Assembly: GCA_024641505.1 (NCBI GenBank)
Contig: JAHECY010000021.1
Location: 1 to 40,504, forward strand
Source: Gammaproteobacteria bacterium
GTDB lineage: Bacteria; Pseudomonadota; Gammaproteobacteria; SG8-11
Length of the DNA stretch: 40,504 bases
Direction of reading: 5' to 3'
In this document: piece by piece, positions 4,100 to 40,504 of the stretch
How positions within the stretch are numbered: position 1 is the stretch's first letter
How the letters are laid out: every line of letters starts with the position of its first letter
Notes under the pieces: model-generated
What the model was told of the DNA's origin: nothing
What the model saw: the letters and a program-made list of their open reading frames with translations, nothing else
Databases searched by the model: none
Position numbers and translations under genes: made by a program

Positions 4100-6307
<2,208 letters not shown>

Positions 6308-29219: not shown

Positions 29220-30320
29220 ATGTGGGGCATGGAAATGAAAACACGTCGATCATTAAATCACGTCATTTATAAAAAGACTTTTTCTATCGTCGGCAGATAT
29301 GCCCTTGGGTCCGCCCTTGCGGTAATGACGCCCTACGTGGCGTCAAATGCTGCGGAGGAGTACAAGATTCCCGGACACATTCCCGCGGCCAGTTGGCGCC
29401 TGCCGGATATCGCGCCTTCTCCAGCCTCGAATCCCTTTGATAAAAAACGCGTCGAGTTGGGGAAAAAGTTATTTTTCGATCCGTCGTTAAGCGGCAATGG
29501 CAATATGTCGTGCGCCACCTGCCATGATCCGACTCGAGGTTGGGCGGACGGGCTGCCCACTGCCAAGGGACATAAAGGCAAAGTGCTCGGGCGCGCCACA
29601 CCCACGGTTATCAATGCCGGATTCTATGAAATACTCATGTGGGATGGTCGGGCGCAATCTTTGGAAGTCCAGGCCCTTGGCCCCATCAATAATCCCGATG
29701 AAATGGCGAACAACACCCGCAATGTGCTGGGAACATTGCGTGCTAATGCGGAATATGTCAGGGCCTTTGAAAATGCCTATCCGGGTATCGGCATATCCAA
29801 GAGCACGTTGGAGCGCAGCATCGCCATGTTTGAGCGCGCGGTAGTCATCAATAAGTCACCGTTCGATTATTGGGTGGAAGGCAACAGAAAAGCGATGACG
29901 TCGCAGCAAGTCCATGGTTACGAATTGTTTGTGCGCCCGGATAAAGGTAACTGTGCCGTGTGTCATCAGCCACCGAATTTTTCCGACAATGGTTTTCATA
30001 ATATCGGTTTGAAATCCTTCGATGAAAAAAATCCAGATTTGGGCCGGTATTACCACAGTAAGGTTCCCATGGCCAAGGGAGCTTTCAAAACTCCACAGCT
30101 GCGCAACGTCGCCGAAACCGCACCTTACTTTCATGATGGATCGGCGCAGACTTTGGAAGAGGTGGTGCGTCACTACGCGAAAGGGGGAGATAGTAAAGTT
30201 AATCTCTCACCCAATATGATGATCGGGAAATTATCGGATCAGGATGTCTGGGATATCGTCGCCTTCCTGCGCGCGCTTTCCGGGAAAACCGATCCGAATT
30301 TGAGTATGGTTGCCCCTTAG
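29220..30320 (+). CDS. Di-haem cytochrome c peroxidase / MauG family protein
   Basis: The 366-residue protein carries an N-terminal signal region (GRYALGSALAVMTPYVASNA) and two c-type haem sites, CATCH near residue 98 and CAVCH near 245, so it is periplasmic. RVELGKKLFFDPSLSGNGNMS and GAFKTPQLRNVAETAPYFHDGS are typical of the CcpA/MauG family. Classical members reduce hydrogen peroxide with electrons from cytochrome c or cupredoxins, while MauG-like members modify protein cofactors. The following gene encodes a cupredoxin and is a likely electron partner. Start candidates are ATG 29220, 29229 and 29235; I kept the first. Confidence 0.92.
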   Translation: MWGMEMKTRRSLNHVIYKKTFSIVGRYALGSALAVMTPYVASNAAEEYKIPGHIPAASWRLPDIAPSPASNPFDKKRVELGKKLFFDPSLSGNGNMSCATCHDPTRGWADGLPTAKGHKGKVLGRATPTVINAGFYEILMWDGRAQSLEVQALGPINNPDEMANNTRNVLGTLRANAEYVRAFENAYPGIGISKSTLERSIAMFERAVVINKSPFDYWVEGNRKAMTSQQVHGYELFVRPDKGNCAVCHQPPNFSDNGFHNIGLKSFDEKNPDLGRYYHSKVPMAKGAFKTPQLRNVAETAPYFHDGSAQTLEEVVRHYAKGGDSKVNLSPNMMIGKLSDQDVWDIVAFLRALSGKTDPNLSMVAP

Positions 30321-38247: not shown

Positions 38248-39819
38248 TTAAGAAAGTTTACCTTTAATGTGATCGGCGATCCGAAGTGCTAACGCCACAA
38301 TCGTGAGCGTCGGCGTGACATAGCCACTGACAGGAAACACCGAACTGCTTGCGATATACAGGTTGTGGACGCTATGCATACGGCAATTTCGATCGACCAC
38401 TCCTTGCTGGGGATTGTCGGACATGCGCGTTGTCCCCATGTGGTGACAACCGTTCCAGATTGGCTGTGGCCATTCATTATTTTCATCAAGTAGAAATTGC
38501 GGAATGTTTACTCTGCCAATTCCCAGTCGGCCGAGTTCTTCGCCTACGAGTTGCAGGCTGGTGCGGATTGTCCTTTTTTCAAATTCCGTTATGCGCCAGT
38601 CAATAACGACTTGTCTAAGTCCAAGCCGGTCGGTCTTTGGTCCTAAATATATGCGGCTGTCAGGATTGGGCCATTGTTCGCAACGCACGTGTAGTGGAAT
38701 ACTAATGGCATTTCCCAGATAATTATCGCCGCGTGCGCGCGTGTATACACCCTCCAGAACGGAATCGAAATCCTTCATGATTTCCCAGAGTTTTGCCGCC
38801 GTATCGTCGGGCCAGGAACCCTCCCTTATTTCATGCCACATGTTTCGCAGGTCGTGATAACCGGAACCCCAGACATTGTCGGCGGTAAACGCGCAGTTGA
38901 GTATTTCGTGTCGGGCTTGCGCATGATCGGATACATTCATTTCCGCTCTGGCGACGTAATTATTCTTCTGGAATCGGTTGAACGTATGAGCGAATGCATT
39001 GGGGTCATTGGCCAGTACCCGGGTCAATTCATGATATTCCAGATGCTGTTGAAAAAACCGACCGACCAATTTAGACCCATTGCCAAGCCCATTAGGTTCT
39101 ACCTTGTCGGATAGTAAAAGCATGCGCGTATTTTCAATCCCGCCACAGGCGAGTACAAAATACTTTGCGCGTGCATAACCCGTTTTCCCTTCCAGCGTTT
39201 GAATTTTGAGCCGTTGAAGAGCGGTCGCGGTTGAGTTGGCTTCAAGCTCAACGACATTGGCAAACAAGTAAACTTTTACATTATGGGAGGATTCCAGCTC
39301 TTTTCTGTAAACTTTACCAAATCGCGTGGGGGGGCTGTACTGCCAGAAGCGAAGGGTGAGCTTGGATTCGAGTACCGGAGGATATTTACGCTCTCCATCG
39401 CGATAAGCGTCCATATCATATTGGTAGGGGCCGAGCTGGCAGACTTCTTGTGCACCTTCGTAATAGGGCAGGAGATCCTTCGGCCCGATTGGCCAGCCAC
39501 TGTATGGTATCCAAGGCCGGTATTGGTAGTCGATCTCGCGCAGTGGCGCACAATGTCCCGCCCAATGATTTGTCGTCCCGCCAAAGTAGCGCAGGCGACA
39601 AGTAACCGGGCCGGTTTGTTCAAATCCTATGCTGTCCCCAGTGTAGAGAGATTGAATATCGGTGTCGGGCTCGAATCCGCCACTTTCTAACAGACATACC
39701 TCCATTCCGGTGTTGATAAACGATCGAGCGATGGCAATGCCTGCGGCGCCCGCGCCAATGATGCACACATCTGCCGATATGTCATGGCTGGTATCCAGAG
39801 AGCGGAAATCTACAAACAT
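38248..39819 (-). CDS. GMC family FAD-dependent oxidoreductase
   Basis: The 523-residue flavoprotein has the FAD-binding CIIGAGAAGIAIARSF (about 19-34) followed by VCLLESGG. GGTTNHWAGHC is the GMC covalent or active-site neighbourhood, and the C-terminal CHHMGTTRMSDNPQQGVVD contains the expected catalytic His. The closing block VTPTLTIVALALRIADHI is typical. GMC enzymes oxidise alcohols, sugars or choline; the layout resembles bacterial membrane sugar and alcohol dehydrogenases. It has no signal peptide. It begins 12 bases after a small Tat-signal gene, so the two probably travel together as one complex. The substrate is unknown. Confidence 0.93.
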   Translation of the reverse strand: MFVDFRSLDTSHDISADVCIIGAGAAGIAIARSFINTGMEVCLLESGGFEPDTDIQSLYTGDSIGFEQTGPVTCRLRYFGGTTNHWAGHCAPLREIDYQYRPWIPYSGWPIGPKDLLPYYEGAQEVCQLGPYQYDMDAYRDGERKYPPVLESKLTLRFWQYSPPTRFGKVYRKELESSHNVKVYLFANVVELEANSTATALQRLKIQTLEGKTGYARAKYFVLACGGIENTRMLLLSDKVEPNGLGNGSKLVGRFFQQHLEYHELTRVLANDPNAFAHTFNRFQKNNYVARAEMNVSDHAQARHEILNCAFTADNVWGSGYHDLRNMWHEIREGSWPDDTAAKLWEIMKDFDSVLEGVYTRARGDNYLGNAISIPLHVRCEQWPNPDSRIYLGPKTDRLGLRQVVIDWRITEFEKRTIRTSLQLVGEELGRLGIGRVNIPQFLLDENNEWPQPIWNGCHHMGTTRMSDNPQQGVVDRNCRMHSVHNLYIASSSVFPVSGYVTPTLTIVALALRIADHIKGKLS

Positions 39820-39831
39820 ACGTCGGGATAA

Positions 39832-40218
39832 TTATTCACATTTTCCGGTAGCTGCCAGTGCGCATAGCAATACTTCGGTTCTTGCTAAAATCCAACCGTT
39901 CAGCAAAATAGTATCACCATGAAGAAAATCTTCCCTGATCCTGGATTGCGCAAAATTAAGCGATAGCGTGTTACCGCCTGTCAGGCCAAGACCAATGCTT
40001 ATGGCGTTACGGCCCGCGTCGGATAGTCCACCGTGCCGTTCAAGATATTTTTGCCCCAAATATATAGCGCTGTCCGGGTTCGTGAACAAATATAAAATAT
40101 TGTCAGATGGTGTTGGTTCGTCGACTTGGGGGGCTGTCGATAAACTTCCCGTAAGTCGCAAAGCGAGCAATCCCAATGTTTGCCGAAACAGCGCACGAAA
40201 GAAATTTCTGCGATCCAT
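39832..40218 (-). CDS. Tat-signal small protein, probable partner of the GMC oxidoreductase
   Basis: From ATG 40218 the 128-residue protein has a twin-arginine signal (MDRRNFFRALFRQTLGLLAL). The mature part has NPDSAIYLGQKYLERHGGLSD-type sequence and a conserved-looking close, REDFLHGDTILLNGWILARTE followed by LLCALAA. Small Tat subunits of this kind escort and anchor GMC dehydrogenases, as the gamma subunits of fructose and gluconate dehydrogenases do, carrying the flavoprotein through the Tat pore. The gene ends 12 bases before the GMC gene. I cannot tell whether a cytochrome subunit lies beyond the window. A longer frame to 40260 is less likely. Confidence 0.8.
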   Translation of the reverse strand: MDRRNFFRALFRQTLGLLALRLTGSLSTAPQVDEPTPSDNILYLFTNPDSAIYLGQKYLERHGGLSDAGRNAISIGLGLTGGNTLSLNFAQSRIREDFLHGDTILLNGWILARTEVLLCALAATGKCE

Positions 40219-40469
40219 AAATATCCCATTAAGGAATTGTTGAAGGATTATAGCAAACAAGCTAACTGAGCCCTATTGGTTTATCCGTATCGCCCATATT
40301 TGCGTCGGTTCGGTCAGTGCCGTGTGAAGCGCATAAAAAATTATTGCAGCAATATAAATACGGTATTGGAGTAAGGTTCGGAATTATTTCACGCACAGAG
40401 AATTCCTGTCGATCATACTTAACATAGTTGAAAAGCAAGCTAGTATTAACGTTAGCGGAGCATTCAATA

Positions 40470-40504
40470 GGAATTGGGAATTGGGAATTGGGAATTGGGA
40501 ATTG
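40470..40504. repeat. 7-bp tandem repeat running off the window edge
   Basis: Five perfect copies of GGAATTG fill 40470-40504 up to the last base, so the array probably continues beyond the window. It lies in noncoding DNA upstream of the Tat-signal gene. Arrays like this vary in copy number by replication slippage. Confidence 0.95.

Follow-up and report, generated by a model that had tools for sequence, protein, structure and literature searches.

A GMC-family oxidoreductase and its small twin-arginine partner protein: a probable exported sugar-oxidising enzyme without the iron-sulphur loop

The two-gene locus

We analysed a stretch of 40,504 nucleotides of a gammaproteobacterial contig (hereafter, the window), which carries at one end a gene for a GMC-family FAD oxidoreductase and, directly upstream of it, a gene for a small twin-arginine protein (Table 1). 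This layout, i.e. a GMC enzyme without a signal peptide following a small twin-arginine protein by 12 bases, had been proposed in an earlier note on the same DNA, and both reading frames were confirmed. The ATG of the GMC gene is the first start codon in its open frame, and about 20 residues separate it from the FAD motif GAGAAG, which leaves no space for a signal peptide. The open frame of the small gene contains a further TTG 14 codons upstream of its ATG. The contig runs to position 47511, 7 kb past the window, beyond a 100-base assembly gap. This gap of 100 N at the window end is flanked on either side by five copies of the perfect 7-base tandem repeat GGAATTG (contig 40470-40504 and 40605-40639, corresponding to 4471-4505 and 4606-4640 of locus L003).

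Table 1. Coordinates of the genes and other features discussed in the text (window positions, unless a contig or another locus is named)
Feature	Position	Strand	Remarks
Di-haem cytochrome c peroxidase / MauG-type ORF	29220-30320	plus	PF03150, E 3e-57
GMC-family FAD oxidoreductase gene	38248-39819	minus	523 aa, ATG start, no signal peptide
Intergenic spacer	39820-39831	minus	12 bases, in frame with both genes
Small twin-arginine protein gene	39832-40218	minus	128 aa from ATG, begins MDRRNFF
Start of the intergenic region facing the divergent PF03407 glycosyltransferase gene	40219-40504	.	ends in the 7-base tandem repeat at the assembly gap
PF03407 glycosyltransferase gene, divergent	contig 40773-41651	plus	beyond the window
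Wzc-type tyrosine kinase gene	contig 42274-44550		beyond the window
Pectate-lyase-type ORF			beyond the window, with the glycosyltransferase and Wzc-type kinase genes
Ten-haem ORF directly beside the pair, convergent	L021 10607-12622	minus	
One-haem ORF directly beside the pair, convergent	L028 9181-9759	plus	

The GMC protein

The C-terminal domain PF05199 (GMC_oxred_C) matched the window GMC protein with E 1.8e-20 and 74.3 bits against the Pfam cut-off of 24.6, which assigns it to the GMC superfamily; the N-terminal GMC domain PF00732 was absent among the 16 Pfam families listed. According to sequence profiles, the nearest relative was glucose dehydrogenase (E 1.2e-59), followed by fructose dehydrogenase (E 1.2e-47) and, in the third place, by pyranose oxidase (E 7.5e-27 at best). 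The specific pyranose oxidase model TIGR02462 gave only 50.2 bits against a cut-off of 544.9. The AlphaFold model of the protein (pLDDT 93.8) has the fold of sugar oxidoreductases: the best solved structure after re-alignment was the large subunit of fructose dehydrogenase (Z 37.9, rmsd 3.9, 444 aligned, 23% identity), while glucose dehydrogenase (Z 34.5, rmsd 3.5, 420 aligned), a C-glucosyl oxidoreductase (Z 34.0) and pyranose oxidases (Z up to 33.6) came out structurally level. The closest relatives in sequence and structure all act on sugars or glycosides.

The conserved catalytic histidine of GMC enzymes corresponds to His459, and this column holds a histidine in 80 of 81 rows of the family alignment and a gap in the remaining one. 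At the second catalytic position, where His or Asn is expected, the window protein has Thr502 and 66 of the 81 rows have Asn. Since this residue varies within the family, we did not take Thr502 to exclude the window protein from the GMC superfamily; in view of the threonine in place of the common Asn, however, its activity is not assured, and its chemistry may not be that of the related enzymes. In the profile alignment, His85 of the window protein falls on the flavin-binding His105 of the Burkholderia cepacia enzyme, to which FAD is covalently attached according to PMC6719666, and a histidine occupies this column in 65 of the 81 family members.

The small twin-arginine protein

The window small protein consists of an N-terminal RR motif, a helical body, and a C-terminal beta hairpin and helix bearing GW-x-L-A/S-x-T-E. 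In its AlphaFold model (mean pLDDT 81.8) a signal helix and further helices are followed by a beta hairpin at Trp109 and by a final helix predicted to start at Arg113; residues 41-70 and 91-120 were modelled with pLDDT of 90-96 and residues 11-40 with 54-66, the confidence being lower in the signal and linker. The segment REDF...LNGWILARTE, which had been singled out earlier as conserved-looking, turned out to be conserved in fact, as the pattern W-x-[LIVM]-[SA]-x-[TCAS]-E was present in 55 of 59 relatives and W109 was invariant in their 59-row alignment (A3). R3 was likewise invariant and R4 was present in 90% or more of the rows; the RR pair occurred in 57 of the 59 proteins, whose starts were chosen partly by this very motif. 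Tat-signal models of Pfam matched six of the 59 (PF10518, at E up to 0.1), and PF10518 did not score the window protein at the same threshold.

We found no Pfam family for the window small protein. Beyond the Tat-signal models, the 59 members gave only scattered weak Pfam matches, and the result with NCBIfam was similar. PF12318, which we take to be the family of fructose dehydrogenase small subunits, and PF13618 did not match the window small protein at E up to 1, and neither family had any match in the window genome. Among the 59 small proteins, PF12318 weakly matched one (E 0.012) and PF13618 was absent among the families listed. When the small family was compared by hhalign with three PF12318 proteins, the result was 6% over 9 columns; against 12 PF13618 proteins it was 58% and E 9.8e-5, over 26 columns. 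Neither amounts to a convincing link, but a distant relationship to PF13618 may exist. For the model of the small protein, Foldseek found nothing at E 0.001 or better, and Z 2 was not reached by any of 63 re-aligned chains, an absence that is no proof of a new fold; searches of its sequence against solved structures returned chance-level matches only. As far as these tools reach, the small protein constitutes a family of its own, and we recognised no description of it in the open-licence (CC0, CC BY, CC BY-SA) full-text literature. Longer versions of the small protein occur in three genomes (L029 9863-10975, L148 1483-2583, and L150 1498-2595), where about 200 residues are added at the C-terminus; by eye these seem to include two repeats of one domain (WGP...G..xNxQ.DG), and they match no Pfam family.

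Pairing of the two genes across genomes

We examined the association of the two genes from both sides. From the side of the small protein, whole genomes were searched with the window protein and then with a nine-row alignment (A1), which yielded 16 places; 15 of them were opened (L003 and L021-L034) and one weak place (G215, E 0.0069) was left out. A GMC gene adjoins the small gene at 13 of the 15. The two exceptions are G175, where the small gene and a GMC gene lie on different contigs, and G562, which was dropped as weak (E 2.3e-4, profile positions 5-87 only). A second search, in which the A3 profile was run against the same set of 369 genomes from the class, found 15 places in 13 genomes, of which 13 (the window included) adjoin a GMC gene, a count that overlaps with the first one and is not independent of it. 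The two others are that of G175 and that of G015. In this search the small gene of G015, broken by stops into two pieces, was counted as one place; it is located at about 1231-1894 of L149, beside a glycosyltransferase-like ORF and with no GMC gene in the 3.3 kb covered. On plasmids, tblastn with the small protein gave no match at E 0.1, and a later profile search found the small gene beside a GMC gene in two of six opened loci (L035 and L037).

From the side of the GMC protein, one genome per species was scanned with an alignment (A2) of nine GMC proteins, all adjoining a small gene (the partner in L037 was confirmed afterwards), and the best 80 of at least 580 relatives were analysed. The small gene was found beside the GMC gene, on the same strand, in 59 of these 80, a fraction that leans towards paired clades because the alignment was built from paired proteins and only the best 80 relatives were kept. 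The small gene is located upstream in 37 of the paired loci and downstream in 22, the gaps between the genes fall between -53 and 47 bases in 58 loci and amount to 132 in one (some starts were chosen by hand), and a 4-base overlap is frequent. The 80 GMC relatives, like the window protein, appear to have no signal peptide, with starts chosen near the first position of the profile and several frames extending upstream. The paired loci are distributed over at least seven phyla, with 29 in Pseudomonadota, 23 in Bacteroidota, one each in Myxococcota, Gemmatimonadota, Cyanobacteriota, Verrucomicrobiota and Deinococcota, and two unassigned; many of them come from metagenome-assembled genomes, and the 59 include loci of Mucilaginibacter aquariorum and Maribacter arcticus. 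The pairing of the two genes is thus tight and widespread, and the outcome that the earlier note had named as a refutation of its reading, namely small proteins found mostly without GMC partners, did not occur on either side.

Beside the other 21 of the 80 GMC relatives no small gene was found, and a relaxed search there returned nothing convincing (the best match, with E 0.049, lay inside the GMC gene of L111). Some of these loci are near contig edges (106 bases upstream in L056, 198 and 323 bases downstream in L113 and L111, respectively), but others are complete, which indicates that some GMC proteins of the family do without the small gene. On a quick tree of the 81 GMC proteins, the label "paired" requires 11 changes, compared to 18.7 for shuffled labels; the small partner has therefore been lost or gained several times. 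In L060 and L117 two GMC genes lie side by side without a small gene.

The GMC relatives that stand alone, the separate contigs of G175 and the small number of proteins scored by the Tat-signal models are what would be expected if the small protein were exported alone or served as a maturation factor, with the GMC enzyme working in the cytoplasm. We consider this unlikely. The adjacency of the genes in both orders, often with the 4-base overlap, indicates a joint function, and an RR signal on only one of two partners encoded side by side corresponds to the pattern of Tat hitchhikers, as described in PMC6719666.

The missing iron-sulphur loop and the search for cytochromes

In glucose dehydrogenase, the [3Fe-4S] cluster is held by Cys212, Cys218 and Cys222 in the loop Glu197-Asn229 (PMC6719666). 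In comparison to the catalytic subunits of glucose and fructose dehydrogenases, the window GMC protein is short of about 40 residues that include these cysteines, and does not have the cysteine loop of such subunits. To judge the whole family, we used as controls 12 hand-picked GMC proteins that adjoin PF13618 or PF12318 small subunits. The cysteine motif was present in the loop region of all 12 controls and of none of the 81 family members. The region corresponding to residues 141-190 comprises 49-62 residues (median 51) in the family versus 87-95 in the controls, and contains no or one cysteine versus three to five. The [3Fe-4S] loop is therefore missing from the window protein and from the members of its family that were compared. 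The GMC protein of L047 has a chance match to the cysteine motif outside the loop region.

The earlier note had seen no cytochrome in the window and proposed to look for one beyond its end. Neither was borne out: a di-haem peroxidase-type ORF is present in the window, on the other strand and 8 kb from the pair (Table 1), whereas past position 40504 there is no ORF of at least 80 aa with a CxxCH motif up to contig position 47511. In other genomes, a multihaem ORF (at least two CxxCH) was found near the pair in one of the 59 GMC-selected paired loci (L057) and in one of 13 further paired loci (L021), compared to four of 12 loci around the control GMC genes. Within the stretch analysed around each pair, an ORF with any CxxCH was found in three of the 59. 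Upstream of the pair in L057 (147-4964, Opitutae) lie genes for a DUF1552 protein and, two genes away, for a planctomycete-cytochrome/DUF1592 protein. L024 and L034 have single CxxCH matches that seem incidental. Two of the 13 further loci, L021 and L028, have a haem ORF immediately next to the pair. Both ORFs face the pair and so are not in an operon with it, and in these two genomes they disfavour a strictly cytochrome-free reading.

These haem proteins bring into consideration a dehydrogenase like glucose or fructose dehydrogenase whose electrons would go to a c-type cytochrome with its gene at another place in the genome. The nearest sequence relatives of the window protein are indeed the catalytic subunits of these enzymes, haem ORFs stand beside the pair in L021 and L028, a planctomycete-type cytochrome domain protein stands near it in L057, and at least one gene of the cytochrome type, that of the di-haem peroxidase, is present in the window genome. 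On the other hand, the iron-sulphur cysteine motif is absent in all 81 proteins, the small protein is recognised by neither PF12318 nor PF13618, multihaem ORFs are rarer near the pair than near the control genes, and the haem ORFs of L021 and L028 lie outside its operon. On balance we regard such a cytochrome-linked dehydrogenase as quite improbable. Of the interpretation given earlier, the escort idea and the pairing were well supported (59 of 80 and 13 of 15 loci), and the cytochrome sought past the window was absent there.

Genomic neighbourhood

Beyond the assembly gap comes a glycosyltransferase gene divergent from the pair, followed by the other genes listed in Table 1. The arrangement of divergent glycosyltransferase, small gene and GMC gene recurs in G003 (L034), which belongs to the same genus. 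As a general partner, however, the PF03407 glycosyltransferase had to be rejected, as besides the window genome it was found only there and was absent from the other 19 loci of the L021-L040 set and from the 80 GMC-selected loci. A larger conserved operon was rejected as well: besides the GMC and small genes, no cluster of neighbours occurred in more than eight of the 80 loci, and the largest cluster, present in eight, consists in seven of them of antisense frames over the GMC gene.

An annotated polysaccharide cluster surrounds the pair in Rhodobacteraceae S2214, and relatives without the small gene also lie within polysaccharide clusters in Rhizobium. We counted Pfam families in 203 ORFs that neighbour the pair in the 59 loci (E up to 1e-5; members rather than loci were counted, and some of the ORFs are spurious). 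The first 25 of 128 and 143 families include YdjC (4), NAD epimerase (5), GH17 (3) and glycosyltransferases of group 1 (3 and 2) and family 2 (5), but also non-glycan families such as MFS transporters (4). In several of ten small-side loci that were read by eye, the pair is surrounded mostly by housekeeping genes. Given the glycosyltransferase and Wzc-type kinase genes past the window and the glycan genes that recur, a glycan substrate is plausible.

Some neighbours recur in particular lineages. Mucilaginibacter loci have a YdjC-type gene upstream of the pair and closely spaced with it (L073 239-4237, and similarly L064, L071 and L074). A membrane-protein-like ORF recurs upstream of the pair in seven Bacteroidota loci; by eye it was considered as an acyltransferase, an assignment that was rejected when three of these ORFs were scanned and gave no Pfam match at 1e-5. 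In a set of 100 neighbouring proteins, one was identified as a 3-keto-disaccharide hydrolase (PF06439, E 2.5e-84), which would fit a 3-keto sugar as the product.

Two rhizobial GMC genes without the small gene overlap a gene for an NAD-dependent epimerase/oxidoreductase in polysaccharide clusters (L038 9950-12599 and L039 9941-12608), possibly as a pair that oxidises and reduces in two steps. That the window GMC protein is itself the redox partner in such an epimerase-like sugar change, rather than a net oxidase or dehydrogenase, is suggested by this overlap but appears most improbable, as the two rhizobial relatives have no adjoining small gene and no reductase gene adjoins the window pair.

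Proposed function

In sum, the two genes probably encode an enzyme that oxidises sugars and the small escort by which it leaves the cell interior. In the form that we favour, and consider reasonably likely, the pair is a Tat co-exported periplasmic oxidoreductase of sugars or glycans, with an escort of a new family and without an iron-sulphur wire. Within this proposal, complex formation, Tat export, the sugar substrate and the electron acceptor are the parts that we infer. The GMC protein would fold and bind FAD in the cytoplasm, where the small protein would bind the folded enzyme and supply the Tat signal. The complex would then cross the inner membrane in the folded state, hitchhiker-style, as in the Burkholderia glucose dehydrogenase; TatC is present in the window genome. 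In the periplasm it would oxidise a sugar hydroxyl, most likely in a glycan, and the electrons of FAD could pass to oxygen or to a diffusible acceptor such as quinone. We propose this type of acceptor because the [3Fe-4S] loop, which wires the relatives to a multihaem cytochrome, is missing.

A broader reading, according to which such pairs form a separate class of Tat-exported GMC enzymes, with an escort family of their own and without a wire, that oxidise sugars of the envelope or of exopolysaccharides in the periplasm of many bacteria, is tentative, and we would not yet bet on it. If true, it would imply a redox modification of surface glycans following their export. We could not find a description of a class of Tat-exported GMC enzymes without the iron-sulphur wire in the open-licence literature.

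The small protein defines, through its partner, a protein family without a Pfam or NCBIfam name that extends over at least seven phyla. Its association with a loop-less enzyme suggests that the hitchhiker export of GMC proteins is not tied to the design with an iron-sulphur cluster and a cytochrome. Two questions follow: how the flavin of an exported GMC enzyme is reoxidised when there is no wire, and whether surface glycans are oxidised by bacteria once they have been exported. A sugar oxidoreductase that is exported and encoded by two small genes could also serve as a biocatalyst.

Comparison with known systems

Fructose dehydrogenase is wired by an iron-sulphur cluster and haem, and pyranose oxidases and C-glycoside oxidases work without an iron-sulphur cluster or cytochrome. 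The large subunit of the Gluconobacter fructose dehydrogenase (PDB 7w2j, 9jqa) is the best structural match of the window GMC model, but the window small protein has no match to the small-subunit model PF12318. The fold of the window GMC protein is also that of bacterial pyranose oxidases and C-glycoside oxidases (PDB 7qfd, 8qve, 7dve), with Z of 31.4-34.0, although their kinship in profile searches is weaker.

The FAD glucose dehydrogenase of Burkholderia cepacia, with its gamma-alpha(-beta) composition (PDB 6a2u, 8grj; PMC6719666), likewise combines a GMC subunit with a small Tat protein, and its catalytic subunit has the same fold as the window protein, with His105 aligned with His85. It differs in having the [3Fe-4S] loop and a three-haem cytochrome, whereas the window enzyme is without the loop and without an adjoining cytochrome gene, and no kinship of the two small proteins was detected. 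The three-subunit GMC system of Collimonas (PMC12542777) also has a GMC large subunit and a Tat small subunit, but, unlike the window pair, includes a cytochrome subunit. GmcA/GmcB of Methylacidiphilum (PMC8630023) are likewise a GMC large subunit and a Tat small subunit, and GmcB may be a relative of the window small protein.
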